A stretch of DNA of 64,000 nt, from assembly GCA_023374045.1 (NCBI GenBank), contig CM041783.1, forward strand, positions 120,095,503 through 120,159,502, given 5' to 3'. Below the pieces are notes generated by a model. That model saw only the letters and a program-made list of their open reading frames with translations, made no database searches and was not told where the DNA came from. A program made the translations under genes and the position numbers. Below, piece after piece: positions 15,060-63,575 of this stretch; positions within the stretch are counted from its first letter, which is position 1; each line of letters starts with the position of its first letter. Source of the stretch: Limonium bicolor (taxonomy: Eukaryota; Streptophyta; Magnoliopsida; Caryophyllales; Plumbaginaceae).

Positions 15060-15090
15060 TTGCTTAGGCTAACGGTTAATCAACGAAGCA

Positions 15091-39000: not shown

Positions 39001-39249
39001 GGTAGTATTTGGTACATCTCACTCGCTCCTTCGACGGGAGCGTAACCATGAAGTCTGGTAGCTCATCAGCGTCTAGCCCTAACCTCTACGCAAATGATGG
39101 TGAAACAAAGGTATAAGAGGCACCGGAGTCGAACAATACTGAGGCTTCAATGCCATTTACCGTAAAGGTACCCGTTAAGATGGTGCCACTCTTATCGGCT
39201 TGTGCTTCGGTGAGGATACTCTGGTTACCTTCAGTACCGAGTCCACAGC
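36010..39249 (-). pseudogene. Chromovirus pol (PR-RT-RH-INT-chromodomain), minus strand
   Basis: Inferred exon from the acceptor before 39249 to a TAG at 36010. The protease keeps LFDSGASYTFVS, and IFGMNWLERHKG follows. RT shows [61 protein letters not shown] and the catalytic FIDDILVYS (about 38135). RNase H shows [19 protein letters not shown]. Integrase shows CLTCQKVKFEH, SMDFVVGPPPSRRG and IVSDRDTRF. The C-terminal end carries KVLWSNHDVEEATWE, a chromodomain of the Tekay/Del type. At least two nonsense codons (within protease, and before MNQLL in RT) and several frameshifts disable it. Confidence 0.92.
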
Positions 39250-40131: not shown

Positions 40132-40215
40132 CTAAGGTTATAAACTTATCTAACGGGAGTTCGAGTTTTAAACTAGTTCGGTTCATGCTCAAGGATCAAG
40201 GGTATTCAAAAGTAC

Positions 40216-41231
40216 CTAAGCCGGTTGAGATGCCGGTCCTATCTTGGTCTATGATGTGCAAGGCCAGCTGCCTCTATGGTGCACCCTTCTGAGCACCTCG
40301 GGACCCCTATCCCAGTGAGGTCTGCTGGGCCAGAGCATCACCAGATGCAACCTCCTTGTCTTCTCTCTGCTTGTAGCCTTGATAGTTTCCCTTAGGCTTT
40401 GACTTGTTTGGGCACTCGAAGGAACGGTTTCCTATTTGGTTGCATTTGTAGCATCGCACTTCTTTTCCCTGGCAGTTGACGCCGGGGTGGTTATTCCTGC
40501 AGATCTTGCAATTGTAGTAATGGCCTTCAGAATTGTTCTTACCATAGCCGGAACCGGAACCTGTGGTTCGAGTGTTAGCAACAATCGGTGTGGTAGTACT
40601 AATTTCACATGTGTACAAATTTAATTCGGAGTCTTACCCTTAGGCGGGTGAGATCTCAACGGCTTTGCTGCCACCGGTGTAGGATAGGCAAGTTGCAACT
40701 GCTCATCTGCCTTGCCCTTCTCATCTTGGGCACTGCTATCTCTGGGGGTATTCTTTTGGTTTTGATGGAAGTGCTTCCCTTTCTTCTTTTTCCAGCCTTT
40801 GTTCTGATACTGCTCCTCTGAGCTAGCATTCTTGGTGTTAGATTTGCGCTTGAGCACGTTGTCCTCATCCCTCAGCTGGATGGTAATCTCAACATGTGAG
40901 GTGGCAAGGTAACACTCCTGAAGGTTTAGGGTGTTAGGTGCTATTCTTTGTATAATGAGATACGAATTCATATTGACAATGGCATTAAGGGTTCAAATCA
41001 ATGTTTACCTGGAGAGAGGTAAAACGGGTATAACCAATGCCATACCGGAGGCGATGGCTCAGGCCGCCATAGAACCGGTCGATCAAGACCTGTCTAGTGT
41101 ACCCACGGTTGGGTAGTAGTCGGAGGATGGAGGTGAAGGTTTGGTAGTAATCGTCGACGATCATCTTATCTGTCATCTTCAAAGCGTCAAGCTCCAAGCG
41201 CTTCTTGGTCTTAACGTGTTCAAGGTAGTAT
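40216..41231 (-). pseudogene. Chromovirus gag, C-terminal half, with two introns
   Basis: Minus strand, in order: the end of the retrotrans_gag domain (DDYYQTFTSILRLLP, FYGGLSHRLRYGIG); intron 1 (41008 to about 40941, CCAG|GTAAAC...ATAG); VEITIQLRDEDNVLKRK and a Lys-rich linker ending SHPPKG; intron 2 (40637-40561, AAGG|GTAAGA...CCACAG, phase 1); then two zinc knuckles, CKICRNNHPGVNC and CYKCNQIGNRSFEC. The second knuckle has Asn where the zinc-binding His is expected. Two TAG codons lie between the knuckles and the donor at 40215. It binds element RNA in the particle. Confidence 0.85.
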
Positions 41232-42518
41232 CACTAGTGGAAAAAATGTTTTAAACCACGGTTATTTTGCTTATATACCATGGTTAGGAACCGTGGTTTA
41301 TGCTCCCGTCGCATATAGAAAATTGTCTATATACCACGGTTGATAACCGTGGTATAAAAGTATACTATATACCACGGTTTGCTAAGACCGTCATTTAAGA
41401 CCGTTTTTGGACGCGGTCCTCAACGATTTTAAACCACGGTTAAGGAGAGAACCGTGGTATAAAGTCCTTTTATATGATGGTTAAAGGTCAAAACCGTGGT
41501 TTATTATCTATAAAATCAACGAATAAACCACGGTTACACATATAACCGTGGTTTATAGTCTATGAAATTTTTTCAAAATCGCCGGCGATTTAGAAGCGCC
41601 GCTTCGCAGATATCAAACACAGCACAAAAGAGAATGAAGAGGCTAGAACATGTGTGTTCCTTGTTTGTGATTTATGGTTGCAAAATAATGAGTGAAGAAT
41701 GGCGTAGTATGTTCCTTGTTCGCGGTGGGTTACGAAATTACAGTGAAGTTGAAGAGAATTAAGAACGGAGGCGTAGGTCATGTACCTTGTTCGCCGGTTA
41801 TGTTGCAAAAATTACAGTGAGAATGAGTGAGTGAGGACGAGCATGTTCCTTGTTCGCAAGTGTAAGCTGCAAAAATTACCGAAAAACAAGAGAATGAGTG
41901 AGGAAGAGCATGTTCCTTGTTCGCGATTTAGGATTACAAAAATTACCGTGAGCTAGTAGAAGAGAATGAAGAATAGTTGCAGAGCATGTTCGTCGGTTTG
42001 GGTTCCAAAATTATCATGAGGTTGAAGAGAATGAAGAAAAGTTGCAGAGCTCGTCGTTTTGGGTTCCAAAATTACCGTGACATTGAAGAGAATGAAGAAG
42101 AAGTCGACATATATGAGAATAGAGAGAAAGCGCCGCGTTAAATTTTGGCCGAAAATTAAAATTCCTGGCTCGATTATATACCACGGTTGATAAAAAAACC
42201 GTGGTTTAATATAGCAAGATGTGCAATATAAATGACGGTTGCCTAGGAACCGTGGTATATAGGTACCCTATATACGACGGTTCTTGAAGAACCGTGGTAT
42301 ATTCACTCCGGCATGTACTATATACCACGGTTCCCCTGAAAACCGTGGTATATAACTAACCTATATACGACGGTTCCGGAAAAACCGTGGTATATGCGCT
42401 CTGGTATGCACCTTAAACGACGGTTTCTATTAAAACCGTGGTTTATAAACTTTAAACCACGGTTTTCCATTTAACCGTGGTTTAAATGCCGTCATTAAAA
42501 ACATTTTTTCTACTAGTG
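41232..42518. mobile_element. Non-autonomous CACTA (En/Spm-type) transposon, 1287 bp
   Basis: The termini CACTAGTGGAAAAAATGTTTT and, in reverse complement, CACTAGTAGAAAAAATGTTTT are flanked by the 3-bp TSD TAT (41229-41231 and 42519-42521), a full CACTA signature. Both subterminal regions (about 41250-41565 and 42175-42490) are dense arrays of ACCACGGTT...AACCGTGGT palindromes about 30-45 bp apart. The centre holds a degenerate tandem repeat. No transposase is encoded, so it depends on a related autonomous element. It splits the chromovirus gag. Confidence 0.92.
41630..42100. repeat. Degenerate tandem repeat inside the CACTA element
   Basis: About six units of roughly 70-90 bp sharing AGCATGTTCCTTGTTCGC, a GTTxCAAAATTACCGTGA block and AGAGAATGAAGAA. 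Units 1-4 keep the first motif best. The short ORFs crossing it are not credible genes. Confidence 0.75.
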
Positions 42519-42970
42519 TATTTAGATCGTAAAAGTGAGGTGAAGGCTTCCCAATCAAATGTAGGATCAGCGGTGTGCTTGGCCTTGACAAGTTTCCACC
42601 AATCCATATATAGCAGCATCATTGAGGTTGTAGGCGGCTATCCTCACTCGAACTCCAGCAAGAGCCTCGAGAGTCTTGAAAGCCGTCTCCATCTTGGAGA
42701 TATAGGCTTTAAGCTTGGCGGGGTCGCTCTCGCCTCTAAAGTAGGGAGGTCGGAGATCTGTGACTGCCTTTACCCAGTTTACTTCTCGGGGTTGAGGTGG
42801 GTCGGGTTGTTGTTGCTGCTGGTTTTGTTGGTTCTGCTGTACAGCCGCGATAACTTAGGGTAGCATCTGTGTTACAGTGGCAGCGACGATTTCAGCTATC
42901 GTCTACGTGCCCGGCTCCTCAGCAGATCCTCCACAGCCTCCGCCATGACCGCGTCCTCTGCCTGACATCT
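42519..42970 (-). pseudogene. Chromovirus gag, N-terminal half
   Basis: ATG at 42970-42968 (MSGRGRGHGG) about 105 bp downstream of the primer site. A Gln/Pro-rich stretch is followed by REVNWVKAVTDLRPP and ESDPAKLKAYISKME, aligned with RETNWVKALADLRPP of the plus-strand copy. Two in-frame TAG codons are present. The gag is interrupted at 42519 by the CACTA element and resumes at 41231. Confidence 0.85.
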
Positions 42971-43074
42971 GAACAAGTAACGATTTAAATAAGGTACTGT
43001 GACCAGGTGGTCTTGGGTTTAAGCAATGGTTGGTAATCCTACTCGGTAATTCTTGACTTATCAGAGAGACACTT

Positions 43075-43092: not shown

Positions 43093-44322
43093 TGTAACAC
43101 CCCTACCGGTAATTCTCTAATTATCTCCTAATTGTCATGGTCTCTAAACTAATCGCAGCGGAAAAACCAAATCAAACGGCGGGTGATACAACACCGGTAG
43201 CCGCCCATACGACTAACAAGGCTTCAAATACAAATAGTAACAGTCTGATAGTAAAGAAGTACCGAGTTTCATTAATCAAACTACAACCATAACTCCAACA
43301 ATACTTACATCCTTGCTCTCCACAACAACTTACCAAAAGAGATTACCGAGTGCTATGAGTTAATTCAAATTACAAACATTCCTAAAAGTCTACAAGGTGC
43401 CAAGTGTCTAACAAATATCCATGTCTACCAATGTTTACAATTCCCAAAATCCAAAAGGGTGTAGCACATGGTACACCAGCTAAACAAAAGGATCTAAGCC
43501 ATGTACGATTTGGTACACCAAACAAACGCTAGTCTAACAAAAGAGTGTGTCCCGGTCATTCTCTAACCGTCAACCATTTTGAGTACCTGCAATAAAAACG
43601 GTGCCCCAAGGGGATCAGCAAAACATGCTGGTATGAAATTCACATACCCCGCGTGCTAACGGGGATATGCCAACTAATTGTTCAACAACATGAGGTTAGT
43701 TTTATTAAACAACATGCTAAGATAAATAACTGCACAAGCATGCATAGCAACAATCAAACAAGCCGTACCACACAAGCAAGGGAGATATTTCACAATTCAC
43801 CAATCAATATTCACTTCTCAATCGAACTTCAACACTTAGTTAGTCCAATTCCCATCCGGGTTATTCGGATGTCATTATTTCTTTTACTCAAGACCAATAA
43901 CTCACACACGCCAAGATCTTTTCTCAAACAATTATCCTTCTCTGAATAATTCTCAAGTCAAGTCGGTATGACCTCCGGGCAGGGACAAGACTATCCCACC
44001 ACCGGGCTTAAAGTTGGCTTACCTCCCCGGGTTGCTACCCATTTAAGGGGTTTGGACCATGGTGGGAGGATTAGGCCAGGATTTGGTTAACAATCTCTCT
44101 TGTTACCTCATCCTCACGGGTGGCCGAAACTATATCGGGCTTCTCACAAACGCGAATTTATCAAATTCTCTAAGTTAGCAAGGTCACCAAGTTATGGAGT
44201 TAGCGAGAGGCCCACATCTAATCAATCAAGGTTATCACAACCAATCAATCAAACACTTCAACTTTCAATCACAACTTTATAGTTCAGCCACAACTCATAG
44301 AAGGCACAATATTCGTAAGATA
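43093..44322 (-). mobile_element. 5' LTR of the minus-strand chromovirus, U5-side part
   Basis: It matches the first 1.2 kb of 31733-35607 with scattered substitutions. The U5 stem-loop is at 43196-43217 (one pair broken) and the CCCC/GGGG hairpin region at 43581-43635. It is cut at 44322 by a CACTA element, and its remainder should lie to the right of the window. Confidence 0.9.
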
Positions 44323-45127: not shown

Positions 45128-48100
45128 TGAAATACCCCAAGCCTTTATATGTTGTTTAAATATTAAAATATGGTATATTAAGGCTAAAAAGTGCCTTAGA
45201 AACATTAGTGAACAATTCAAACCATAGAAAACACAATAAAGTACCATAAAGGCAATTAGGGCAAAAATGTGCTCTAAGCTTGAGATAACCTTGGTTAAGA
45301 CCCAAAGGGCTTACCAAGACTTTATTAACATCCTAATAAACATGTTAAACCAGTAACCAAAGAAAACCAAGCTTGAAAACAAGTTAAAACACAAAATGTG
45401 CTTTAAGGAGTCTTAAAGCACATTTTTGAAAAAATGTCTTAGTAATGGGTTTTGAGTAGCTAAATGCCCATCATAACTATTTAATCAACATTTGTACTAC
45501 TTAGTATCACATTAAGAAGTCTAAATCAATGGGAAATCAAAAATTTCACAATTATGTGCACTAATTTGTGAATAGTGCTCAAATAGTGCTAATTTAGCAT
45601 TAACTCAACATAAGTCAATTAAATGGTAAAAAAAGACCATAAATATCCTATGGAGGGTAAGGGGGCCGGTTTTTAAGTGTGGCTCACCACACTTAGCTAG
45701 TCAAATAAGGAATAAAGAATAAATAAGTAAGTTCACTATTTGCTTTATGTACAAATATCTTTCAAAAGTAACCTCTCACCTCACTTTCTCATTTCCATCT
45801 TGTTTCCCACCATCTTCATCCTTTCCTCCCTTCTCCAAATTGGTTTTGCTACTGCAACCATACCATTCTCCATCTTTAATTCCTTATAACTCCTAGCTCT
45901 ATGCTCCAAAATTAATTCCAAGACCACCATTCTCTTAGTTTGATCATGCTCTAAAAGTTTGTCTTTTCAAATCATCAAAAGCTCCATTTCGGTGCCAAGA
46001 GGAATCACCATTGAAGGAGCAAGAACTCATTTTTCTACCTCGTTGTTCTCTTTTGCTTCAAGGTAAGGAAACCCAAAGAAACTTTACATTTCCTCTTGTT
46101 TTTGTTCTTGACCGGGAATCACCCATTGATGATGTTTTCTCTTAATCTTTCATAGCTCCATTTCAAACTTCAAAGGGCCAGGTGGAGTCCTCTCTTGCTA
46201 CTTAATCAAATTCTCATTCAATTCCAAGGTAAACTATCATTTTTGTGTTTTAAAACACTTATGTGAATTTAGGGTTTATATATGATTTTAAGTATGAATC
46301 TTGAAGCTCATTACCCTTATATGTGTGTATGAATAGAAGGTTGACAAGTGATCAAGTTCCTTGCTAAGCTTCAATCCAAGAAAACAAGAAAAAGAAAACT
46401 TGAAGAAAAGAGGTAAATAACCTAACTTAATGTGGTTTAATGTGTCTTAGGAAATTGAGCTTTAACATGCTTAATAAACTACCTAAGGAGCCAATGGTAA
46501 ATGAGCTAGAAAACTATCCTCAAGGAGATTATTAAAGACATATGTGTTGGTGTATGTATTTGCAGGTCAAATGCAAATATTATGTGGGAAATTCAGTGTT
46601 TAAGGTTTTGCAATTTAAGGGCCTAAGAGCCGTGTTTAAGGGCCTACGTGCCAAGCAATTTAAATTATGCACTATATTGTGATGTAGTGTAGTTTAAGGT
46701 TTAGTTGTATGTAAAGAACATTCTTGTGTGGATAAATGTTCTTGATTGTTTAAAGGTGAAAAACCTTGTGTTTTGGTGTAAGGAAGTGCTAGCAAAGCTA
46801 TATCCAAATTTAATTAGAAAACAATAAGTTTGAGTGTCTAAATGAAGTTTAGTGACCTAGGTTGTACTAGAAATTGTTAAGGCTTAGATTTGTGAAAGAA
46901 AGGGAATTAAGGTATTCTTAATTTTTAAAAAATGTATAGGCATTGTCTTGGAGGATTTAGTGTTCAATGAGTGAAATTTTGGTGAGCAAGGGAAAATTAT
47001 GCTTGTGAAGGTTTAAGTGTGAATTGGAGGAAAAATAGAAAGAGCTTGTGTAGTGGAGGTGCCGAGCAGAAATAATGCTTATGGAGTAGTGGTAGTTTAG
47101 ATAAGGTAACATTTTGGTTAGTTGGTGTTGTAGGCATAAAACTACCACTTGGAAACCTAAGGAAAATATTACAAGTGTTAAGGAGTTTTGTGAGAAATTG
47201 GGTAATAAGTTGGACAAGGAATTGGACAAACTTAAGGTGTTATTTTGGTATTAGAATATGCCTAAGATTATGTGTGAAGTTTGGGTAAACAATGGATGAG
47301 GAGAACAAGTATAACAAGGCTTGAAAAATGCATAAGTGTAAAATCTGTAGCATGGTTCGGGACTTAGGTCCAGGGTGAAGTCCCGGACCACACCAAAATA
47401 AGGGCTGAGAGTACATACTGCACTATGGTCTAGGACTTAGGTTGGTATCAAGAACCGGACCACCCCTTAATTTTCCCCCGAGAGTAGCAGCAACTATTGG
47501 TCTGGGACTTAAGTCCCATATGAAGTCCCGGACCACCCTGTTAAATAAGTCCGAGAGTTAGGCCATGAATTGGTCCAGGACTTTAGGTAAGGACCAAGTC
47601 CCGGACCACTCTAAAATTGTTGTTTAACGTTAGAAAATGACTTGTAATGATGGTGATTGATAAGTAATGTTATAAGGTTGTTTAAGACATGTTAGGTGAG
47701 TTATAATGACAATTAAGAGGGTGAAAAGTTGTGATTAAGTGTGAAATTAAAACAAGCTAGAAATATGAAGTAACAAGCTAATCAAGGTCGAGAATAGTAA
47801 TTAACCGACATTCCTAAATTTGTATAGGAGTTGCCTACGGTGGAAAACAAACGCAGCATGGACCAAGGTATGGTTTTCTTGCAGTCTGTTTGCTACCGGT
47901 TTACACCGGCTTGTGTGTTTGTTTGTTTTATGTGTGTTTATGACTTTGTTAGACTTAAATCATGGAAAGAGTTTACAGTCATTGTTATTACTGTGATGTG
48001 AGTGTACCGGTACCGTTAACCTCGAATACGTGCTAACCCGTTAGTTAACCAAGTTAGGATACATGAGAGAGCGGTACCCAGTTTTAATGTTTCAACTTAA

Positions 48101-49135
48101 GGAACGTTCTAACTACAGCTATGTATGAGCTAGTTGTGGTTTATGTTGTCAAAATATGTCTCATCTCCCTTGTGTGTCTAACTAGACCTAAACACCTACT
48201 TGTGAATTAATGTGTTAAGTTCCAACAATGGGACTTCTAACAAGTGTTAACCGGGGAGTGAGGAGTCCGGTCTTTCCGGCACGCGTGTAAGTACGGGGGT
48301 CGATATCTGAATCAGGGTCGACTCTCTCTGTATGTTATGGTTGTTTTCCTTCTTGGTCTTCAATCAACCTCAAGCTTAACAAAGGCTATTTATCTGACTC
48401 ACGTCGGACTAGGGGCAACATTATGTACGGTATGCTTGGATCACTATATCCGACGCACCTTGGGGTTAAGTTATGTGTTCATCTAACAGAATGGTAATGA
48501 GTTATGTAACGAGCTTAACATGAGTTTGACATCATTCTCTAGGCTCTCCAAGTTGATTAACTATGTTCGGTTCGGTTCCTAAAGAGAACCGTTCCCGTTA
48601 TGTTATGTGTCAATGTTTGTGATGCAATTCTTATTGCTATGTTATGTAAGTTTTATGTTAAAAATCAATGCCATGTTATCATGACAAATGGTTGCGTGTA
48701 TCCCGGTAGCCGACGGGCTGCACGTTAGCCATACCAGCCATGGGTTGCTGACCCCTTTGGGGCACCATATTTTATTTTGCAGGATGAGGATCGAGGAAGC
48801 GGAGTGGCTCTAGATCCTAGGTGTTATGAAATTTTTTGGTAGTTTTTGGATGTTGAACCCGGGATGCGCCTGTGCTCCCGTGGTGATATATTTTGGAATG
48901 ACAATTATACAGTGATGGTTGTAAATATTGATACTCGGTATATTTGGTTGTATTTATGGTTTTAGTACTATGCTCAGGAGTCTGTGCATCAGACCGATAC
49001 GACTGTATGTATTCTGCCTTGTTAGCCTTGTGGGTGGCTAATGGCGTGTAACACCAACTCCTTTAGTTATTGTTAAGTTATATATTTCCACTGCAGTTTC
49101 GGTTTATTGTTTAAGTTTACAGTAGGGGTGTTACA
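45128..49135 (+). mobile_element. 5' LTR of the plus-strand Tekay-type chromovirus (4008 bp)
   Basis: From TGAAATACCCCAAGCC to GTAGGGGTGTTACA, followed by a primer site at 49141. Its partner is 55536-56856 plus 60841-63575. It contains a hairpin array of GGTCCGGGACTT / AAGTCCCGGACC units (47353-47612), the CCCC/GGGG hairpin plus TTTTGCAGG (48744-48783) and the U5 stem-loop (49021-49042, lower stem mismatched). The left flank AAAGT (45123-45127) is the candidate TSD. No gene is in it; a 90-codon antisense ORF also present in the 3' LTR is taken as chance. Confidence 0.93.
47353..47612 (+). repeat. Hairpin array in the 5' LTR
   Basis: Four units about 65-75 bp apart, each an imperfect palindrome of the form GGTCCGGGACTT...AAGTCCCGGACC with a 10-20 nt loop, separated by CCGAGAGT-type spacers. 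The same array is in the 3' LTR at 61753-62016. Confidence 0.8.
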
Positions 49136-49140
49136 AAAAG

Positions 49141-49153
49141 TGGTATCAGAGTG
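49141..49153 (+). other. Primer-binding site, plus-strand chromovirus
   Basis: TGGTATCAGAGTG five bases after the LTR, matching the initiator-Met-tRNA site used by chromoviruses. Confidence 0.88.
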
Positions 49154-49355: not shown

Positions 49356-50816
49356 ATGGCAGGTAGACCACGTGGTAGTGGCCACGGGCGCGGTATTGGA
49401 GACCCAGAGGAGAACACTACGGCACAAGTTATGGTTGACGCTGTAGCAGCCGCTGTAGCCCAGATGGTCCCACAGTTGGTGGCTGTGATGCAACAAGGGC
49501 AGCAGCAGCAAGGCGGTGCAGACCAACAAGGCCCACCACCGCAACCACAGCCGCGCGAGACCAACTGGGTCAAAGCGTTGGCAGATCTGAGACCACCATC
49601 ATTTCACGGGGAGACCGACCCGGGTAAGCTGGAGGCTATATCTCCAAGCTGGAGACCGCCTACGAGACCTTGGATGTGCCTACTGGTGCCAAGCTTCATC
49701 TTACCGCTTACTACCTGAAGGGTTCGGCAAGGAGTTGGTGGAATCTTGTACGGGAAGGTAGAGTTGCTAATCATACTTTTGAGTGGAGGGAGTACACGGC
49801 TCTGCTGCGAGCCAAGTACTACCCGATGCATGTACAAGAGGACAAGCGCCTTGAGCTGGATAGTCTGAGACAAGGGGACAAGATGTCGGTAGACGAGTAC
49901 TACACCGCCTTCACCGACCTTATCCACCTGCTACCAGATCTGGGATACTCAAACCGGATCCTGGTAAACCATTTTTACAACGGACTCAGCTACCGCCTAC
50001 GCTACGGGATGGGGCAGCTGGATATAACCTTGCAGGTAATTAAACTATAGTGTGATATTAATAAGTATGTACTATATGTGAATGTAAATGCGAGTTTGGT
50101 TTGCAGGGCATAACTAACACCCTAAATAATAGGAGTGCTATCATGCCGCTGCTAAGGTTGAGATCACCGTCCATCTGAGGGACGAGGAGAGTGCGCTCAA
50201 ACGCAAAGGTTTCGAACGAGGGCCAAAGCACGCAAGGGTACATGGGATGAAAGAAGAAGAAACCTTACCCCCAGTTCCAGAAAGGCCAGCACCAGGGTGG
50301 CAAAGGCCAAGCCCAGACCACCACTGCTGAGGAGCCACTGCAGCTCACTTACGCCTATGCGGCTAAGCCCCTACGTTCTCACCCGCCCAAGGGTAATTAC
50401 GTAATTCCGAATATCAAGTTAAGGTGTGTATTTTTAAGTTGTGAGTGTGTACTGAATGTGTAATGTGATAACAGCTAGTGCGGGTTATGGATCCGAGCGC
50501 CACTACTACTGCAAGTGGTGTAACGGAGACCACCCCGGCGGGGACTGCAAAGGAAATGATGTGCAGTGTTGCTACTGCAAGAAGATGGGGCATCGTGACT
50601 ATGAGTGCTTCTAGAACCCCAACGGCGGAAGCTTCAGGCCTAAGGGGCAATGGAAGGGTAAGGCTGCCATGACCACTAAAGGCCCGAAGGCGATTAACCA
50701 GCCGCCCACAGATCAGGGGAACACGAACTCCCAGAAGGGGAAAGGGTCGGGAGTTGGCAAGGCTGCCCTGAATGTGGTAGACCGGTCAGAGGCTGTTGGA
50801 CCCTCTACTAGACCAG
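49356..50816 (+). pseudogene. Chromovirus gag with two introns, plus strand
   Basis: ATG at 49356 (MAGRPRGSGH), an Ala/Gln-rich stretch, then RETNWVKALADLRPP. A frameshift lies near 49630. The retrotrans_gag core follows: LKGSARSWWNLV, FEWREYTALLRAKYYP, MSVDEYYTAFTDL. Intron 1 is 50036-50106 (GCAG|GTAATT...TTTGCAG). VEITVHLRDEESALKRK follows with a 1-nt deletion, then SHPPKG. Intron 2 is 50393-50474 (AAGG|GTAATT...ATAACAG, phase 1). Then come two zinc knuckles, CKWCNGDHPGGDC and the canonical CX2CX4HX4C CCYCKKMGHRDYEC, followed by a TAG where a sense codon is expected. The exon ends CCA G at 50816. Both introns match those of the minus-strand copy in position. Confidence 0.87.
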
Positions 50817-50961
50817 GTACTACTTAAACCACTGAGTGAAGTAATTGACTACTTATCGCATTTCAAGCATGAGTGTTAGCAAGTCCAAATGTGCAATTAT
50901 ATAAGTAGAGAGTTAAAGTATAATGTGTAATTTACCTAAGTTAGATAATTCTAAACCTTAG

Positions 50962-51701
50962 GAACCTTCTATATTTGCTATCCAATCCCTCCCACACCAA
51001 ACCCCGAAGGAACCACCATCAGCATCACCAAATTCCCGATGGAGCAATGTCAGGTTATCCAGCCAGGTGTGATAATATTAAATGGATACCTGACACCCGA
51101 AGCACAAATCCACATCATACGACGTTGTGACGAACTGGGAGCAGCACCTAGAGGTTTCTACACACCCGAATACCCGAGTGGATCGAAGATGAAGTTGAAG
51201 ATGATGTGCATGGGTAAGGTCTGGAATCCTTACACCAAGACATATCAGGACAAATGAGCAGAAGACGGGGCAATAGTACCGAGGATACCTGAGGAATTCC
51301 TTGTGGTCGTAAACCATGCCGGGGGAATTGCTCAGCAAGTTGAATCGGATCCAATTTCGAGTGTTAAAGCAGATTTGTGTATTGTGAACTTCTACCAGAA
51401 ACGTGGACGGTTGGGTTTACACCAAGATAAGGACGAAACACCCGAGTCTCTGAGTAAGGGAGTACCCGTGGTGTCTTGGTCCATTGGTGATACCGCAGTG
51501 TTTGTGTATGCGAGCAGAAATGCGCTGACCTCGCAAAGAAGTTAGTGTTGAAGTCAGGAGATGTACTAATCATGGGTGGGCAGTCGAGGATGCTGTATCA
51601 CGGTATCAAGAAGATCAAACTAAATACCACACCTTCGACAATAACCAAATGCCACACACATGAAACCCGGACGTTTAAATTTGACATTTTGGCAATTCTA
51701 A
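50962..51701 (+). pseudogene. AlkB-type 2-oxoglutarate/Fe(II) oxygenase carried by the plus-strand chromovirus
   Basis: The exon opens GTFYICYP and runs MEQCQVIQPG, GYLTPEAQIHIIRRC, GFYTPEYPSGS, MMCMGKVWNPYTKTYQ. The catalytic part reads CIVNFYQKRGRLGLHQDKDE with the HxD iron ligands (His 51420-51422, Asp 51426-51428). VPVVSWSIGDTAVFVY follows, then after a frameshift near 51535 GDVLIMGGQSRMLYHG (distal His 51599-51601) and GRLNLTFWQF plus stop (51699-51701). The first Arg of the C-terminal motif is kept (51672-51674); the second is Trp (TGG 51690-51692, from CGG). A TGA at 51255 and two frameshifts disable it. It aligns with the minus-strand copy over its whole length and occupies the same place between zinc knuckles and protease. 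Confidence 0.92.
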
Positions 51702-51809
51702 AGCCTTGTGTAACCATGTAATGGGTGAGACCAGTTTTATGTTAGGGATGCTATATATGAGCTATGTTGACAATGTAAACATACATGTGGTGTAAGGAGT
51801 ATGCTAATG

Positions 51810-51815
51810 AATAAA
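51810..51815 (+). promoter_or_regulatory. Candidate polyadenylation signal after AlkB
   Basis: AATAAA about 110 bp downstream of the AlkB stop and upstream of the protease acceptor, paralleling 39318-39323 on the other strand. Confidence 0.5.
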
Positions 51816-51884
51816 ACGACGTTGTTTTAGAGTATGTTCACCGTGTTATTACTGTATACTTATAAAGTTTGTGAACTGAATTAG

Positions 51885-54800
51885 GCTGTGCACTTAGATC
51901 GGGAGGTATAGGGTGTGTGTAATGAGGCAGAAGCCGACAAGAGCGGCACTATCCTCACCGGTACCTTCCCAGTCAATGACATTGACGCATCGATCTTGTT
52001 CAACTCTGGAGCCTCACACACATTTGTCTCGTTTTCATTTGAGAGAAGGTTGGGGTTAGACGGTGAAGAGATGCCTGACTTTGTTGTCACTCTCCCGTCA
52101 AAAGAGCGGATCAAGTGTACCTGCTATCACCGAGATGCTATTGTACGAATCAAGGATGAAGAGTTTTCGATCGACATGATAGAGTTCGAGGGACTTGGAT
52201 TTGATGTGATTGTGGGGATGAACTGGTTGGAGCGGTACAAGGGTCAAATCCTATGTGCCGAGAATCGACTGCTTCTTCGGAGTCCGATTGGGGTTACCAT
52301 TTCATACCGCCAGAGGCCCAGGGAGCCTTCGACTCAGATTATCTCCACTATGTCTATGTATCGTGAGTTGCGAAGAAAGAGTGATGTGTACCTCTACTAT
52401 GTCCAGGACATAGAGAGAGATCCAGAGTTTAGCCTAGATGTGCCGGTAGTGTTGGAGTTTCCTGATGTCTTTCCTAAGGAACTGCCAGGCATGTCGCCAG
52501 CGCGGGAAGTGAAGTTGGAAATTGAATTGGTGCCGGGAACCGGACCAATACCGAAGGTGCCCTACCGTATGGCTCCAGCTGAGATTACAGAGCTCAAGGA
52601 GCAGCTGCGAGACCTACTTGACAAGGGATTTATACACCCGAGCATTTCACCATGGGGAGCGCCGGTCCTCTTCGTGAAGAAGAAGGATAGTAGCCTCCAC
52701 CTCTGCATCGACTAGAGAGAGCTGAATGCTGTTACAGTGAAGAACCATTATCCTTTACCACGCATTGATGATCTATTCGACAGTTGAAAGGTGCATCAGT
52801 ATTCTCCAAGATCGACTTGCGATCCGGTTACCACCAGATTGCTATTCGAGAGGGTGACATTGAGAAGACCGCATTCCGAACCAGATACGGTCACTACGAG
52901 TTCACGGTTATGCCGTTCGGTTTATCCAATGCACCAGCCAAGTTTATGGACCTAATGAACCACTTGTTCCGAGATCAGTTGGACAAGTCGGTGGTAGTCT
53001 TCATCGACGTATTCTTGTATATTCGAAATCGAAGGGTGAGCATGAAAGCCACCTGAGAAGCGTCTTGTAAACATTGAGAGAAAATCAGTTGTATGCCAAA
53101 TTCTATAAGTGTGAATTTTGGTTGAACCAAGTTTCATTCCTTGGTTATGTTATTTCCGAGGCTGGGATCGCTGTTGATCCGGCCAATATAGATGCAGTGC
53201 GCACCTGGCCTAGACCGAAGACGGTTACTGGCATCCGGAGCTTCCTCGATATGGCAGGATATTACAGGAGATTTGTGAAGGACTTCTCCAGTGTCTCGAA
53301 GCCGATGACTTCCTTAATGAAGAAGGATGCACCATTCGAGTGGACAGACGACTGTGAGAGTTCCTTCCAGAGTCTCAAGGATGCTCTTACCTCTGCACCA
53401 GTCCTGACAATACCAAACGGTACAGATGGTTTTGAGGTCTACTGCGACGCATCCGAAAGAGGTATGGGTTATGTGTTGATGCAACACGGGAAGGTCGTGG
53501 CTTACGTCTCTCGACAGCTGAAGAAGCATGAAGAGAACTACCCTACCCATGACTTAGAATTGGGTGCCATTGTCTTCGCTTTAAAGATATGGCGACATCA
53601 TGTGCATGGGGTAAGCGTGACAATTTATTCTGACCACAAGAGTTTGAAGTACTTGTTCTCTCAGAAAGAGTTGAACATGAGGCAAAGAAGATGGGTCGAG
53701 TTCTTGAACGACTACGACATCAATCTATAGTACAAGGAGGGTATGGTAAATGTAGTAGCTGACGCATTGAGTCGCCGAGCACACTCTCTCCATTCGCTAG
53801 TCTCTGACTCTAGCTTGGTTGAAGAGGTGCGAAGTGCGTAGATGTCGGATCAGTACATGCAAGAGATCAGGCAGAAGCTTATTGATGGCACATTTGAGGG
53901 TCAGAAGTATGACTTTCGACTCCACGATGATGACTTGATCAGGCTGAATGGCCGACTGTGTATTCCGAGGAGTAGCGCTGAGCTGAAGGAGCGCATATTG
54001 AGTGAATCCCACTGTACTACTACTTCAATTCACCCGGAGCTTCAAAGATGTATAAGGGCATGAAACGGTATTTTGGTGGACTGGAATGAAGAAGGATGTG
54101 AATGACTATGTGGTAAGGTGTCTCACTTGTCATGAGGTCAAGTTTGAGCACCGACGGTCTGGTGGTATGGTGCAGCCAATGCTAGTGCCTGAGTGGAAGT
54201 TCCATGATATTTCCATGGACTTCGTAGTAGGGCTTCCGCCTACAAGGGGAGGTCTGAATATGATTTGGGTCGTTGTTGACCGACTGACCAAGGTGGCCCG
54301 ATTAATACCGATGAAGGACACTTGGAAAGTGGTAAGGCTAGCAGAGCTCTTCGACCGAGAGATTGTACGACACCATGGGGTACCAAAGACTATCGTGTCT
54401 GATAGGGATACCAGATTCCTCTCGAGGTACTGGAGAACTACACGGGAAGCGCTTTGTACTGAACTAAAGTTGAGTACGACGCTCCACCCGCAGATAGATG
54501 GTCAGAGTGAGCGCACCATCCAGACGCTCGAGGATATGTTACATGCATGTGCACGTGACTTTCAGACCAGCTGGATTGATAAGTTACATTTGATCGAGTT
54601 TAGCTACAACAATAGTTACCATGCTTCGATCAAGATGTCTCCCTTCCAGGCTTTGTACGGTAGACCATGCCGCACGCCATTATGCTGGAATGAGTCGAGT
54701 GAGACAGTCATTATAGGACCCAAATATCTGGAGCAAGTACAAGCAGAAGTACGCCAGATCTGAGCTAACATGAAGGCAGCACAGGACCGGCAAAAATCAT

Positions 54801-55258
54801 ATGCGGATGTGCGATGACGTGACCTAGAGTTCGCCGTGGACAACCAGGTGTTTCTCAGAGTTTCCCCCATGAAGGGAGTATTTCATTTTGGCAAGAAAGG
54901 CAAGTTAAGCCCAAAATATGTGGGGCCTTATGTTGTGACGGAACGGATAGGCCCGGTAGCTTACAGGCTAGATTTGCCTACTGAACTGGGCAAGGTACAT
55001 GATGTATTTCATGTGTCTCAGTTGAAGAAGTATATGTCTCATCCGTCTCATGTACTTTAGCCCGAAAGGCTAACGTTAGAGCCGACCATGCGATCAGTGG
55101 AGACTCCCATACAGAGTCTAGACACTAAAACTCGAGACACTCGCCATAAGTCTGTAAGGCTGGTGAAGGTCCTCTAGTCTAACCACGAAGTCGAGGAGGC
55201 CACTTGGGAATGGGAAGATAAAATGAGGGTGAAGTACCTGTCGTTGTTTACTCCTTAG
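51885..55258 (+). pseudogene. Chromovirus pol (PR-RT-RH-INT-chromodomain), plus strand
   Basis: The protease reads ILFNSGASHTFVSF, so the catalytic Asp of DSGA is Asn. VIVGMNWLERYKG follows. [60 protein letters not shown]. The FIDD catalytic site is destroyed by a 2-nt deletion (reads FIDVFLY, about 53003). RNase [28 protein letters not shown]. Integrase: CLTCHEVKFEH, SMDFVVGLPPTRGG, IVSDRDTRFLS, QSERTIQTLEDML. C-terminus: GPYVVTERIGPVAYRL, VHDVFHVSQLKKY and the Tekay-type chromodomain (VEEATWEWE, stop 55256-55258). Several stops and frameshifts are present. Confidence 0.94.
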
Positions 55259-55535: not shown

Positions 55536-56856
55536 TGAAATACCCCAAACTTTTATATGTTGGTTAAATATTAAACTATGGTATATTAAGGCTAAAAAGT
55601 GACTTAGAAACATTAGTGAACAACTCAAACCATAGAAAACACAATAAAGTACCATAAAGGCAATTAGAGCAAAATTGTGCTCTAAGCTGGAGATAACCTT
55701 GGTTAAGACCCAAAGGGCTTACCAAGACTTTATTAACATGCTAATGAACATGTTAAATCAATAACCAAAGAAAACCAAGCTTGAAAACAAGTTAAAACAC
55801 AAAATGTGGTTCAAGGAGTCTTAAAGCACATTTTTGAAAAATTGTCTTCTTAGAAATGGGTTTTGAGTGGGTACATGCCCGTAATTACTCTTTAATCAAC
55901 ATGTGTACTACTAGTATCACATTAGGAAGTCTAAACCAATGGGAAATCAAAATTTTCACAATTATGTGCACTAATTTGTGAATAGTGCTCAAATAGTGCT
56001 AATTTAGCATTAAGTCAACATAAGTCAATTAAATGGCCAAGAAAGACCATAAATATCTTATGGAGGATAAGGGGGCCAGTTTCTAAGTGTGACTCACCAC
56101 ACTTAGCTAGTCAAATAAGGAAGAAAGAATAAATAAGTAAGTTCACTATTTGCTTTATGTACAAATATCTTTCAAAAGTAACCTCTCACCTCACTTTCTC
56201 ATTTCCCTCTTGTTTCCCACCGTCTTCATCCTTTCCTCCCTTCTCCAAATCGGTTTTGCTACAGCAACCATACCATTCTCCATCTTTGATTCCTTATAAC
56301 TCCGAGCTCCATGCTCCAAAATTAATTCCAAGACCACCATTCTTTTAGTTTGATCAAGCTCTACAACTTTGACTTTTCAAATCATCAAAAGCTCCATTTC
56401 GGTGCCAAGAGGAATCACCATTGAAGGAGCAAGAACTTATCTTTTTCTACCTCATTGTTCTCATTTGCTTCAAGGTAAGGAAAACCAAAGAAAATTTACA
56501 TTTCCTCTTGTTTTTGTTCTTGACCGAGAATCACCCATTGATGGTGTTTTTGCTTGATCTTTCATAGCTCCATTTCAAACTTAAAAGGGCTAGGTGGAGT
56601 CCTCTCTTGCTACTTAATATAATTCGCATTCAATTCCAAGGTAAACAATCATTTTTGTGTTTTAAAACACTTATGTGAATTTCGGGTTTATATATGAGTT
56701 TAAGTATGAATCTTAAAGCTCATTACCCTTATATGTGTGTATGGATAGAAGGTTGACAAGTGATCAAGTTCCTTGCTAAGCTTCAATCCAAAGAAAACAA
56801 GAAAAAGAAAACATGAAGAAAAGAGGTAAATAACCTAACTTAATGTGGTTTAATGT
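55536..56856 (+). mobile_element. 3' LTR of the plus-strand chromovirus, first part
   Basis: It begins TGAAATACCCCAAAC and follows the 5' LTR closely to AATGT at 56852-56856, where a solo LTR is inserted. It resumes at 60841. Divergence from the 5' LTR is small by eye, so this insertion is relatively recent. Confidence 0.93.
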
Positions 56857-59800
56857 TGAAATACCCCAAACCTTAGTATGTTGTTTAAACATTTAAATAT
56901 GGTATATTAAGACTAAAAAGAGTCTTAGACACATTAGTAAACAAATTTAAACAATAGAAAACACAAAATGTGCTTTAAGGTCAATAAAGGCCAAAATGTG
57001 CTCTAAGCTTGGGATAAGCTTGGTTAAGACCTAATGAACTTACCAAGGCCTTTTTTATATACTAATGAACATATTAAACCAATTACCAAAGAAAACCAAG
57101 CTTGAAAACAAGTTAAAACACAAAATGTGCTTTAAGGAGTCTTAAAGCACATTTTTGAAAAATTGTCTTGTAAATGAGTTTTGAATGGCTAAATGTCCAT
57201 CATTACTCTTTAATTAACATGTGTACTATATAGTATCACATTTGGAAGTCTATATCAATGGGAAATCAAAAATTCACATCTATGTGCCTTGTTTTTATGA
57301 ATAGTAACTTTAATAAGCTAGTTTGTAACATATGTTTGTATAAGTAATTAAATTGGCCAAAAAAGACTAAAATGCCCTTAGTGGTATTAAGGGAGCCGGT
57401 TTATATGGTGGTGACTCACCATACTTAAACAAAAAAAACTAACTAAAGTAGTAAAGTAGAATACTATTTACTTTAACTACTTAATATCTCTTAAAAGGCA
57501 AACTTATCTCATTCTCTTATTTCCTTCCTCATTTCACACGTCTCCAAGCTGTCTTCTACCTCTTCTTCATCCTCCATTTATGGTTTGCAATAGTACACAC
57601 CAAGACTCCATCTTTGACCACTTGTATTTCCTAGCTCACTTAACCAAATCAAAAACAAACACCACCATTCTCTTCCTCTCATCAAACTCTTCATTCCTAT
57701 CTTCTCAAAACTTCAAGACCACCATTTCGGTGCCATGGAGTTTCACCATTGAAGGAGCTTGAGCTTATATTTCTACATATTATTGATCTCCTTTGCTTCT
57801 GGGTAAGGAATCTCAAAGAAAAATGATGTTTCTTCCATGTTTTTATCTTGACCGAGAATCACCATTAATGGTGCTCATTATATTGCTTTGTTCTAGCTTA
57901 ATTCCAACTTTTCAAGGACTAGGTGGAGTCCTCTCTTGATAGATATTCAAACTCTCTTCAAATACCAAGGTAAAACAACTATCTTAATGCTTTTGAAACA
58001 ATGTGAAACTAGGGTTTACAATGAGATGAAGCTTAAAGCTTGTATACTCATTATATTATTTGTATAATGTTTAGAAGTTAACAAACAATCAAAAGCCTTG
58101 TCGATTTAGCCAAGGAAACAAGAAAGAAGTTGTGAGGAAAAGAGGTAAATGTGCTAACCTAATGTGGTTCAAAGTCTTAGGAGAAATGAGCTTATGTTGC
58201 TTATTAAAATGATCTAAGGAGCCAATGGAAAATGACTTAGTAAAATGCTCTCAAGGGCTTAGTAAAAGGCATATGTGTTGTTGAGTGTATTTGCAGGTCA
58301 AAGGCAAATATAATGTAGGAAATTCAGTGTTTATGATTTATGCATCTTAAGGGCCTAAGTGCCATGCAATTTAAATTATGCACCATATTGAGTTGTAGTG
58401 CTAAATGTGTGAAGTTTGTGTACAAGGATGTGTGTGATGGATTTTAGTGTTCATGGTTGTTTGATGGTGAAAGCAATGTGTTTTGGTTTAGTAATGTTCT
58501 AGGAGAGTTCATGTCAAAATTTAGGTAAGAAACAAGAAGTTATAAGGGTTTAAAATGAGTTGATAAGCTAGGAAATGTTTAGTATGGAAGGTGATCAACT
58601 AGTGGAAGATGCATGCATTAAGGTGTTTAAAGATGTAAAAAGGGCTTAGGCAATGTTCTAGAGGATTTTATAATGCAAATGAATGTTTTGGGATACACCA
58701 AAGTCATTTGGATTTGTGTTAAGATTTATGCAAACTTTGGTGAACAATGAGAAAATGTAAACTTGGAAAAGGATTTCAAGAATGACATAAGGAGTTAATT
58801 GTGAGAATAGATGCTTGAGAGATGATGTTGTTGTGGTGAGGGAGTATTTTGGCATAAGTGATCATCTTAGGTATGAAACACCACTTAGAGACTTAGGAGA
58901 AAACATTGTAAGTGTTAGGAATTTTGGGAAGAAATGAGTAAAGGCTTAAGGAATTAGAAAGTGAGTTTTATGGGTGTTTAAGGAGGTCTTAAGGTGTGTT
59001 TGAAGTGCCCAAATGAGGTTAGGATATACTAGGATATATGAGGAGAAGTTTGGAGTTAAATGGGCAATGGAAAATAAGGGTCTGGAGCAGACCGACCTTG
59101 CGACCGAACTTGCCAAGGTCGGTCGAGCCCAGTTTACCCTGCGAGAATTGGTTTGCGGAATGGACCGACCTTGGGGACCGGACTTGCAAGGTCGGTCGGG
59201 CATGGATTTTTAGTACGGATTGAGTCTCTGGAATAGACCGAACTTGGGACCGGACTTACAAGGTCGGTCGGGCCTGAATTTTCAAAGGGAAGAAACTCTC
59301 GGGAATGGACCGACCATGGGACCGAACTTACAAGGTCGGTCGGAGTAGAAAATTTTGACGGTAATATGTTCTGGAATGGACCGACCATGGGACCGAGTTT
59401 GTATGGTCGGTCATAGTGTAAATTTTCAAACCCGGAAGTCACTGGAATGGACCGACCTTGTATAATGTCGGTCGGTAAGGTCGGTCGGACCTAAACTTGT
59501 AAAAAAAAAACAAACAAGAATGGCTTAAGTAATAAACCCTAGGGGGTATAATGTAGGTAATGAAGGATTAGGGGCATTAAAACATGTCATACAATCATGT
59601 AAACATTAGTAAGTTTGAAGTTAAGTAAATAATTAACCGACATTCTTAAACATGTATAGGAGTGACCTACGGTGGAAATCAATCGAAGCAAGGACCAAGG
59701 TATGGTTTTCTTGCAGTCTGTTGCCTACCGGTTTACACCGGGTGCGTTGTATGTTTTTCTGTGTGTTTATGACGTTATAAGACTTAAACATGTAATGAGT

Positions 59801-60835
59801 TTACAGTTGTTCATTACTGTAATGTTATGATGTGACTCATTTCCCTTGTGTGTGTCTAACATGACTTACCACCTGTTGTGTTTTGTTTGTTAAGTTCCAC
59901 CGTGAACTTCTAAAGTGCTAACTGGGAAGTGAGGAATCCGGTTGTCCGGTCATGCATAGATAAGAGTAGATATCTGAATCAGATTCGACTCTTATGTTAA
60001 GATTGTTCTCCTTAATTTGGCGTTCGATCTCCCGCTAGCTTCCTCCAAAGCTTACCTATTCTGACTTATGATCGGTTTAGTGGGAACATGTGTTTGTGTG
60101 ATGTGTTCGGGTCACTATATCCAAACCATCTGTGACTTAAGTTACTCGTTCGAATAACAGAACGGTAATGAGTGTGTGTAACAAGCTTAACATGAGAGTG
60201 AATCATTCTCTAGGCTTCTTATGTTGTTCAACCTTCTTGGTTTGTGATTGTGGAAAGAGTATCCACTGTGTATGTGATGTTGTGCTATGCAATGATAATG
60301 TTATGCCACATGTTATGTTATGTTGTGTTATGTTTAAAATGAATGCCATGTTATCATGACAATTAGTTGCGTGTATCCCGGTAGCCGATGGGCTGCGCGT
60401 TAACCATACCAGCCAAGGGTTGCTGACCCCCTCGGGGGCTCCATATTTTTACTGCAGGATGAGGATCGAGGAAGCAAAGTGGCTGTAGGTTCTAGGCTGC
60501 AGTTGTACTTTTGGTTATTTTGGATGTTGAGCCCGGGATGCGCCTGTGCTCCCGTGGCATTATATATTGATTCCGTTGAAACTAATGTGACGGTATATTG
60601 GGAGTTTACAGTGAAGGAATGTAATTAAATACTCGGTATTGTATATGATGTAATTATGGTTTTAGTTCTATGCTCGGGAGTCTGATCATCAGACCGGTAC
60701 ACTTGTATTTATTCTGCCTTGTTAACCACGTGGGTGGTTGACGGCGTTGTAGCACCGAAGCGTTTAGTTAATGTTTAGTTGTTTATTTCTGCTGCGATCT
60801 CAATTAGTTGTGAAGTGCGATGTAGGGGTGTTACA
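56857..60835 (+). mobile_element. Solo chromovirus LTR (3979 bp)
   Basis: TGAAATACCCCAAACC...TAGGGGTGTTACA with a perfect 5-bp TSD AATGT (56852-56856 and 60836-60840). The 5' LTR shows the empty site at about 46431-46440. It belongs to a related but distinct subfamily. Its U3 start resembles the host LTR, but its hairpin array (59085-59485) uses GACCGACCTTG / CAAGGTCGGTC arms instead. It has the CCCC/GGGG hairpin plus TGCAGG (60409-60459) and U5 stem-loop (60721-60742). It formed by recombination between the two LTRs of an inserted element. No gene. Confidence 0.95.
59085..59485 (+). repeat. Hairpin array in the solo LTR
   Basis: Six units of GACCGACCTTG...CAAGGTCGGTC with spacers containing TCTCGGGAATGG or TCACTGGAATGG. 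It occupies the same relative place as the array in the 45128 LTR, but the arm sequence differs. Confidence 0.8.
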
Positions 60836-60840
60836 AATGT

Positions 60841-63575
60841 GTCTTAGGAAATTGAGCTATAAAATGCTTAATAAACTACCTAAGGAGCCAATGGTAAATG
60901 AGCTAGAAAACTATCCTCAAGGAGGTTATTAAAGACATATGTGTTGTTGTATGTATTTGCAGGTCAAAGGCAAATATTATGTGGGAAATTCAGTGATTAA
61001 GGTTTATGCAATTTAAGGGCCTAAGAGCCATGTTATTTAATGGCCTAAGTGCCAAGCAATTTAAATTATGCACTATATTGTGATGTAGTGTAGTTTAAGG
61101 TTTAGTTGTATGTAAAGAACATTCTTGTGTGGATAAATGTTCTTGATTGTTTAAAGGTGAAAAACCTTGTGTTTTGGTGTAAGGAAGTGCTAGCAAAGCT
61201 ATGTCCAAATTTGAGTAGAAAACAAGAAGTTTGGGTGTTTAAATGAAGTTTAGTGACCTAGGTTGTACTAGGAATTGTTAAGGCTTAGATTTGTGAAAGA
61301 AAGGGAATTAAGGTGTTCTTAGGTGTTAAAACAATTATAGGCATTGTCTTGGAGGATTTAGTGTTCAATGAGTGAAATTTTGGTGAGCAAGGGAAAATTA
61401 TGCTTGTGAAGGTTTAAGTGTGAATTAGAGGAAAAATATAAAGAGCTTGTGTAGTGGAGGTGCTGAGCAGAAATACTGCTTATGGAGTAGTGGTAGTGTA
61501 GATAAGGTAACATTTTGGTTAGTTGGTGTTGTAGGCATAAAACTACCACTTGGAAACCTAAGGAAAATATTACTAGTGTTAAGGAGTTTTGTGAGAAATT
61601 GGGTAATAAGTTGGACAAGGAATTGGACAAGTTTAAGGTGTTATTTTGGTATTAGAATATGCCTAAGATAATGTGTGAAGTTTGGGTAAACAATGGATGA
61701 GGAGAACAAGTATAACAAGGCTTGAAAAATGCATAAGTGTAAAATATGTAGCATGGTCCGGGACTTAGGTCCAGGGTGAAGTCCCGGACCACACCAAAAT
61801 AAGGGCCAAGAGTACATATTGCACTATATTCCGGGACTTAGGTTTGGTATTAAGACCCTGACCACCCCTTAATTTACCCCCGAGAGTAGCAGCAACTATT
61901 GGTCCAGGACTTAAGTCCCATATGAAGTCCCGGACCACCCTGTTAAATTAGTCCGAGAGTTAGGCCATGAATTGGTCCGGGACTTTAGGCAAGGACCAAG
62001 ACCCGGACCACTCTAAAATTGTTTTTTAAGGTTAGAAAATGGATTGTAATGATGGTGATTGATAGGTAATGATGTTGTAAGGTTGTTAAGACATGTTAGG
62101 TGAGTTATAATGACAATTAAGAGGGAGAAAAGTTGTGATTAATGTGAAAGTAAACAAAAGTTGGTGACACTGTGTTTAAGTTGCTAGAAATGTGAAGTAA
62201 ACAAGTAATCAAGGTCGGAATAGTAACAAGATCTCGAGAATAGTAATTAACTGACATTCCTAAATGTGTATAGGAGTTGCCTACGGTGGAAAACAAACGC
62301 AACAGGGACCAAGGTATGGTTTTCTTGTAGTCTGTTTGCTACCGGTTTACACCGGCTTGTGTGTTTGTTTGTTTTCTATGTGTTTTTGACTTTGTAAGAC
62401 TTAAATCATGGAAAGAGTTTACAGTCATTGTTATTACTGTGACGTGAGTTTACCGGTACCGTTAACCTCGAATACGTGCTAACCCGTTAGTTAACCAAAT
62501 TAGGATACGTGAGAGAGCAGTACCCGGTTTTAACGTTTCAACTTAAGGAACGTTCTAACTACGGCTATGTATGAGCTAGTTGTGGTTTGTGTTGTCAAAA
62601 TATGTCTCATCTCCATTGTGTGTCTAACTGGACCTAAACTCCTACTTGTGAATGAAAGTGTTAAGTTCCAACAATGGGACTTCTAACAAGTGTTAACCGG
62701 GGAGTGATGAGTCTGGTCGCTCCGGCCACGCGTGTAAGTACGGGGGTCGATATCTGAATCCGGTTCAACTCTCTCTGTATGTTATGGTTGTTTTCCTTCT
62801 TGGTCTTCAATCACCCTCAATCTTAACCAAGGCTATTTGTCTGACTCACGTCAGACAAGGGGGAACATTATGTACGGTGTGCTTGGATCACTATATCTGA
62901 CGCACCTTGGGGTTAAGTTATGTGTTCATCTAACAGAATGGTAATGAGTTATGTAACGAGCTTAACATGAGTCTGACATCATTCTCTAGGCTCTCCAAGT
63001 TGATTAACTATGTTTGGTTCGGTTCCTAAAGAGAACCGTTCCCGTTATGTTATGTGCCAATGTTTGTGATGGAATTATTATTGCTTTGTTATGTAAGTTG
63101 TATGTTAAAAATCAATGCCATGTTATCATCACAAATGGTTGCGTGTATCCCGGTAGTCGACGGGCCTCACGTTAGCCATACCAGCCAAGGGTTGCAGAGC
63201 CCCTTTGGGGCACCATATTTTATTTTGCAGGATGAGGATCGAGAAAGCAGAGTGGCTCTAGATCCTAGGTGTTATGAAATGCTTTTGGTAGTATTTGGAT
63301 GTTGGACCCGGGATGCGCCTGTGCTCCCGTGGTGATATATTTTGGAATGACAGTTGTACAGTGATGGTTGTAAATATTGATACTCGGTATAGTTGGTTGT
63401 ATTTATGGTTTTAGTACTATGCTCGGGAGTCTGTGCATCAGATCGATACGACTGTATGTATTCTGCCTTGTTAGCCACGTGGGTGGCTAACGGCGTGTAA
63501 CATCAACTCGTTTAGTTATCGTTAAGTTATATATTTCCGCAGCAGTTTGGGTTTATTGTATAAGTTTACAGTAGG
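60841..63575 (+). mobile_element. 3' LTR of the plus-strand chromovirus, second part
   Basis: It continues from the AATGT duplication and matches the 5' LTR from about 46441 to the GTAGG before its terminal GGTGTTACA. The hairpin array is at 61753-62016 and a perfect U5 stem-loop at 63470-63491. Interrupted at 63575 by another LTR, so its last 9 bases are outside the window. Confidence 0.93.

Follow-up and report, generated by a model that had tools for sequence, protein, structure and literature searches.

Does an LTR retrotransposon of Limonium bicolor encode an AlkB enzyme of its own and, if so, how would the enzyme be made and what would it act on? The question is raised by a 64,000-nucleotide stretch of DNA (hereafter, the window), in which an inspection of the letters alone (the sequence-only reading) had located an AlkB oxygenase in a Ty3/gypsy element, with gag before it and protease after it. 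This placement was borne out. An AlkB-type 2OG-Fe(II) oxygenase is encoded at 50962-51701 of element E1, where matches to PF13532 and to PDB chain 5xeg_A were obtained, and is flanked on the same strand by matches to Retrotrans_gag (PF03732; E 4e-18 at 49628-50047) and to the RVP_2 protease (E 1.7e-25, from 51912). RNase H (from 53071) and an integrase zinc-binding domain (E 3e-7, from 54056) follow, also on the plus strand. Self-comparison of the window revealed a second, minus-strand element, E2, at 44.3-31.7 kb (Table 1). LTRs, a primer binding site (in E1 presumably of the tRNA-Met type) and the order gag-protease-RT-RNase H-integrase, which characterize Ty3/gypsy elements, were found in E1/E2.

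Table 1. Coordinates of the two AlkB-bearing elements in the window
Element	Feature	Position	Strand	Basis or remark
E1	5' LTR (TG...CA)	45128..49135	+	direct repeats: 94.1% with 55536-56856, 93.0% with 60836-63575
E1	primer binding site TGGTATCAGAG	49141..49151	+	read from sequence
E1	gag exon 1 (matrix/capsid), frame broken	49356..50035	+	PF03732; start ATG read from sequence
E1	intron A, phase 0	50036..50132	+	GT-AG ends common to E2 41008-40918
E1	gag exon 2	50133..50392	+	tblastx versus E2
E1	intron B, phase 1 by local frame	50393..50474	+	GT-AG ends, also in E2 40637-40561
E1	gag exon 3, two Cys/His knuckle-like motifs	50475..50816	+	spacing; weak profile
E1	intron C, phase 1	50817..50961	+	GT-AG ends common to, and in phase with, E2 40215-40132
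E1	AlkB exon through its stop	50962..51701	+	PF13532, 5xeg_A, alignment with E2; broken
E1	spacer, AATAAA at 51810, ends at candidate pol acceptor AG	51702..51884	+	
E1	protease, RT, RNase H, integrase, chromodomain-like end; broken	51912..55255	+	
E1	3' LTR, two parts (55536-56856 and ~60836-63575) with nested solo LTR between	55536..63575	+	
E2	5' LTR, surviving part	43093..44322	-	93.5% to 31734-32957
E2	gag, exons 1-3	40216..42972	-	BLAST versus E1; introns A 41008-40918, B 40637-40561
E2	intron C, phase 1	40132..40215	-	
E2	AlkB exon through its stop	39393..40131	-	broken: two stops and one frameshift
E2	protease to chromodomain-like end, broken	36028..39249	-	RVP_2 E 2.1e-10, RVT_1 E 1.6e-10
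E2	3' LTR	31734..35607	-	

The LTRs of E1 are 93-94% identical (K2P 0.053 and 0.056), which would correspond to ~2-4 million years at two substitution rates that we assume; the LTR parts of E2 are 93.5% identical (K2P 0.063). Nested in the 3' LTR of E1 is a solo LTR of a related family (56857-60835; ~73-74% identical to the E1 LTR), with a 5-bp duplication, AATGT. The end of the same LTR is broken into at 63576 by another LTR, which starts there (TGAAATACCCC) and runs off the window (63576-64000); part of it resembles the start of the E2 3' LTR (35333-35572, 76%). The gag of E2 contains a foreign insertion of ~1.3 kb at ~41231-42517, with ends CACTAGT...ACTAGTG and many 'ccacggtt' repeats, which by eye is CACTA-like. 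Long open frames at 15073-19712, by eye a copia-type gag-pol, are far less decayed than E1/E2. A search of the whole window against Rfam produced no matches at gathering thresholds.

Two further assignments of the sequence-only reading, the zinc knuckles of gag and the chromovirus affiliation, fared less evenly. The Cys/His spacing of the knuckles was found as described; a profile search matched no CCHC model in E1, and in E2 both matches were under the cut-off (zf-CCHC, E 0.022; zf-CCHC_3, E 0.012). Membership of E1 and E2 in a chromovirus-like lineage is likely, the chromodomain match being weak in E2 (E 0.001, 19.4 bits, cut-off 25.1); no chromodomain profile match was obtained with the end pieces of E1, whose translation resembles that of E2. 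The elements have a look that may be Tekay-like.

The AlkB domain was delimited by profile and structure matches. With PF13532 (2OG-FeII_Oxy_2; curated cut-off 31.2 bits), one of two pieces passed the cut-off in each copy. In E1, the C-terminal piece (51258-51542) was over it (53.6 bits, E 4.3e-14) and the N-terminal piece (50955-51254) under it (23 bits, E 1e-4), so the profile check suggested by the sequence-only reading came out positive for the C-terminal piece; in E2, the corresponding values were 85 bits (E 1e-23; 39393-39683) and 29.1 bits (E 1.5e-6; 39767-40045). Chain 5xeg_A matched the AlkB pieces with E 3.9e-19 in E1 and 4.9e-30 in E2. Position 50962 is the first base past a GT-AG boundary, and the AlkB stop codon is completed at 51701. 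The in-frame translation of 50955-51545 is AlkB-like and is interrupted by a single stop. By our reading of the translation, GLHQDKDE is in the frame opened at 50955, GDVLIMGG..LYHG is in a different frame, and GRLNLTF is in the first frame again. The E1 AlkB is therefore not one open frame: the order of motifs previously described was confirmed, and their location in a single frame was not (one internal stop and two frameshifts). We take HxD, the distal His, NxY and Arg to be the Fe- and 2OG-binding residues. HxD, the distal His and the first Arg are present in E1, spread across two frames, and the last Arg is missing. The E2 pieces hold HxD, the distal His, NxY and Arg; in the alignment of E2 39393-39683 to 5xeg_A, HxD, the distal His and both Arg are present.

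The bodies of E1 and E2 share 67% DNA identity across 4776 columns and, despite this divergence, the gag-AlkB-protease order is common to both. AlkB is thus present in both elements of the lineage that have an internal region within the window. Whether the domain is absent from other family copies had been left as a point that could overturn the sequence-only reading; E2, the only copy besides E1 to have an internal region in the window, contains it, so no such absence has been encountered so far.

The relatives of the enzyme were sought among proteins and structures. All 37 matches of 265-841 residues were AlkB proteins, mostly from plants, with 39-49% identity (best E 2.7e-43), and some were named ALKBH1D-like or DNA N(6)-methyladenine demethylase. 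The PDB matches were AlkB, 5xeg and ALKBH1, with no ALKBH5 chain among them. The closest solved structure is 5XEG, which we take to be rice ALKBH1; its own record is named putative 2OG-Fe oxygenase. In a tree of 44 proteins and three element pieces, built without ALKBH5 proteins, the E1/E2 pieces formed one clade (96/95) near plant proteins, in an exact placement that is unsure given the program's warning of long branches. By these comparisons, the AlkB of E1/E2 resembles plant ALKBH1D-type proteins, in agreement with the ALKBH1 type proposed initially. The host proteins of this type stand alone and have long N-terminal regions, whereas the element AlkB, 39-49% identical to them, adjoins gag, to which it is probably fused. 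None of the 37 matches had a gag or protease domain alongside AlkB. The protein searches covered ~52-166 and ~265-841 residues, and an intact AlkB exon product might fall between these two ranges and a polyprotein above them; this null result is therefore weak evidence of absence.

Further copies were sought in contig collections. With the AlkB query, none of three pattern matches in the viral contig collection was confirmed, and the RNase H query gave no pattern match; with a protease alignment query, the outcome was 0/62 in viral contigs and 0/48 in prokaryote genome contigs. The collections being viral and prokaryote, absence of further copies there says little. Among the best 120 of 2289 protein matches to the start of the E1 protease-RT region, the top one, P0049 (68% identical), is encoded on a 13.5-kb contig, stands far above the rest and is a probable relative; the next named ones among these 120 were from Camellia (54% over 47% of the query), Ipomoea (47%), Primulina (42%) and Helianthus (41%).

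The layout of the region suggests how the AlkB might be expressed. As judged by alignment of the two copies, the predicted introns A and C are kept in place and phase. Intron A is in phase in E1 and E2, with an open frame on either side and two candidate AGs 3 bases apart. The boundary of intron C common to both copies corresponds to the splice-like sites that had been noticed before the AlkB; upstream of it, gag exon 3 contains stops in both E1 and E2. Conservation of intron B is less firm: its ends were not paired in phase in an automatic scan because the frame of E1 exon 2 is disturbed, and it is of phase 1 in both copies when the local frame is taken from a 12-residue stretch identical in E1 and E2. 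Identity between E1 and E2 over all columns was 72% in AlkB, 58, 54 and 45% in the three gag exons, and 44% (A), 44% (B) and 27% (C) in the introns. With gaps removed, the values were 62, 53 and 48% in introns A, B and C versus 59, 58 and 50% in the gag exons, and 72% in AlkB, intron A having diverged no more than the gag exons; the contrast between introns and gag exons is therefore mainly in gaps.

The AlkB stop is at a homologous position in E1 and E2. In both copies, the spacer between AlkB and protease has stops in all three frames, with just one in the protease frame of E2, so other routes to the protease are possible there. No ATG in the protease frame was found before the active site in E1 or E2. 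Plain readthrough from AlkB into the protease was considered and rejected, given the spacer stops in each frame. A candidate pol acceptor, AG/GCTGTG (51884 in E1, 39250 in E2), is in phase with the donor of intron C in E2 and out of phase in E1; a scan of both copies for a conserved pol donor-acceptor pair both in phase and open returned none. As the sequences stand, the protease would be hardly translatable unless the AlkB exon is skipped, a point on which, as on the broken E1 AlkB and on E2, the sequence-only reading had been silent. We infer that Gag-AlkB and Gag-Pol would be made by alternative splicing.

We lean toward a reading in which a host-derived AlkB was captured, spliced to gag and packaged as a Gag-AlkB protein that acts on element RNA or cDNA. 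A chromovirus-like Ty3/gypsy lineage would have captured, between its gag and protease, the catalytic region of an ALKBH1D-type host gene, perhaps as a processed mRNA (a guess made because the AlkB exon is intronless), and would have retained it while the lineage split into families as distant as E1 and E2. Splicing of the AlkB exon onto gag would produce a Gag-AlkB ending at AlkB's own stop, and skipping of this exon would produce Gag-Pol. Gag-AlkB would then go into particles together with element RNA and there, we infer, rid the packaged RNA, or the single-stranded cDNA, of methyl groups or alkyl damage. Such action on the element's own RNA or cDNA appears the likeliest. According to a review, the Arabidopsis host ALKBH9B frees ONSEN RNA (PMC12786077). 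Single-stranded or unpaired DNA is the reported preference of ALKBH1-type enzymes (PMC10469495), which makes cDNA, as well as RNA, a possible target. A fuller version is put forward more tentatively, as plausible and somewhat short of probable. In it, a single gag donor would have two alternative partners, a terminal AlkB exon carrying a poly(A) signal of its own, for Gag-AlkB, and a site beyond that exon leading into Pol, for Gag-Pol; the Gag form would bring the demethylase into the particle, and the whole would represent a multi-intron element and an independent second capture.

In the main rival reading, AlkB would act in trans on the host, stripping marks from its RNA or from open-chromatin DNA and weakening silencing. 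For rice ALKBH1, removal of 6mA in R-loop regions and an effect on H3K27me3 have been reported (PMC10469495), and the authors of an orchid study name cellular RNA as one possible target (PMC9289625). The layout, however, suggests a Gag fusion, itself predicted, which favors particles, and we consider trans action unlikely.

The AlkB might also be a separate short product, with its own start or poly(A) site and unfused to Gag, in which case the preceding GT-AG would be a relic of the host gene. An AATAAA is indeed present past the AlkB stop in both copies (51810 in E1; 39323 in E2), and there is an in-frame ATG near the beginning of the E1 AlkB. This ATG, however, is not kept in frame in E2, and the phase in which intron C links gag exon 3 to AlkB is identical in E1 and E2; a separate product is thus improbable, and a Gag-AlkB fusion is preferred.

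Plant elements often pick up gene pieces, and AlkB, as well as parts of gag and parts of pol, is now broken in both E1 and E2, as could be expected if the domain were an unused passenger piece of a host gene (transduplication). The pattern of change argues otherwise. When pN/pS was calculated for gap-free E1/E2 segments in each copy's own frame, with stop codons skipped, the value for AlkB was 0.31 (bootstrap 0.25-0.39; 237 codons, 3 skipped), and the same segments in the two wrong frames gave 0.92 and 1.59; codon-position bias was seen in the AlkB frame only. Elsewhere, pN/pS was 0.29 in the protease, 0.20 in RT, 0.20 in RT-RNase H, 0.15 in the integrase, 0.20 in the integrase C-terminal/chromodomain part and 0.50 in the capsid end. 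We conclude from this comparison that AlkB was once under purifying selection. Because the domain recurs in the divergent E2 with a coding-frame pattern of change, its occurrence in E1 is more than chance. The intron phases are conserved, and the AlkB proteins of E1 and E2 are 68% identical, above the identity to any plant protein found (39-49%). A mere passenger is very unlikely, and retention under past coding constraint is the reading that we keep.

Differences at fourfold sites were fewer in AlkB (28/62) than in protease plus pol (175/292; Fisher p 0.035), so an exchange of AlkB between elements is possible; the lower divergence hints at such exchange or at other constraint. Two separate captures, or a later exchange of AlkB, with the measured constraint then partly that of the host, are nevertheless hardly credible, since the acceptor of intron C, the stop position and spacer motifs are common to E1 and E2 and the pieces form one clade, though on long branches.

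Comparison with known systems contradicts one claim of the sequence-only reading, namely that no LTR retrotransposon with its own AlkB had been described. A Phalaenopsis Ty3/gypsy case was published in 2022: the Gypsy_Pa_2799 lineage carries a paALKBH5-like ORF2 with a PF13532 domain, and in vitro this orchid AlkB acts as an m6A demethylase and binds RNA (PMC9289625). The Phalaenopsis lineage and E1/E2 are alike in being plant Ty3/gypsy LTR retrotransposons with their own AlkB (PF13532). The orchid lineage is described there as Tat, sister to Ogre and 25.5 kb long, with a separate 565 aa ORF2, gag-pol in one ORF, and an AlkB nested among ALKBH5/9B/10B homologues (PMC9289625). E1/E2, in contrast, have a chromovirus-like end, 4-kb LTRs and an AlkB that follows a shared intron boundary and separates gag from protease; a separate AlkB ORF2 with gag-pol in one ORF was not found in them, and their AlkB is probably of the ALKBH1D type, unlike the ALKBH5-type orchid enzyme, which was compared by its description. 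Because AlkB subfamily, position and layout differ, the AlkB of E1/E2 looks like a capture independent of that in Phalaenopsis. The same study searched 121 angiosperm genomes using family consensus sequences and detected the AlkB domain in Phalaenopsis only; its authors describe this method as poor for low-copy families (PMC9289625). Other reports of AlkB-bearing LTR retrotransposons were limited to a review citing that study (PMC12786077), in a search with most subscription papers and all bioRxiv preprints outside its scope, and the AlkB type, position and splice layout of E1/E2 are new as far as the searched literature shows. A second capture, in another lineage, from another AlkB subfamily and at another place in the element, would make AlkB carriage a recurrent strategy, and recurrent capture would point to methyl marks on, or alkyl damage to, element RNA or cDNA as a limit on plant retrotransposons.

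Among plant mobile genomes, Alphaflexi-, Betaflexi- and Closteroviridae also carry their own AlkB (as cited in PMC9289625); these are RNA viruses, whereas E1/E2 are reverse-transcribing, and the likeness is drawn from descriptions. Introns are used by the plant LTR retrotransposons Ogre and EVADE (PMC12786077), and in Ogre, EVADE and BARE splicing sets Gag against Pol by means of one intron that either lies between gag(-protease) and pol or removes protease (PMC12786077, PMC6317226, PMC3735527). E1/E2 differ from these elements in having three shared GT-AG boundaries, of which two fall within gag and the third precedes an exon that encodes an enzyme and has a stop of its own. This layout suggests a further way of setting how much Gag, Pol and accessory enzyme is made.
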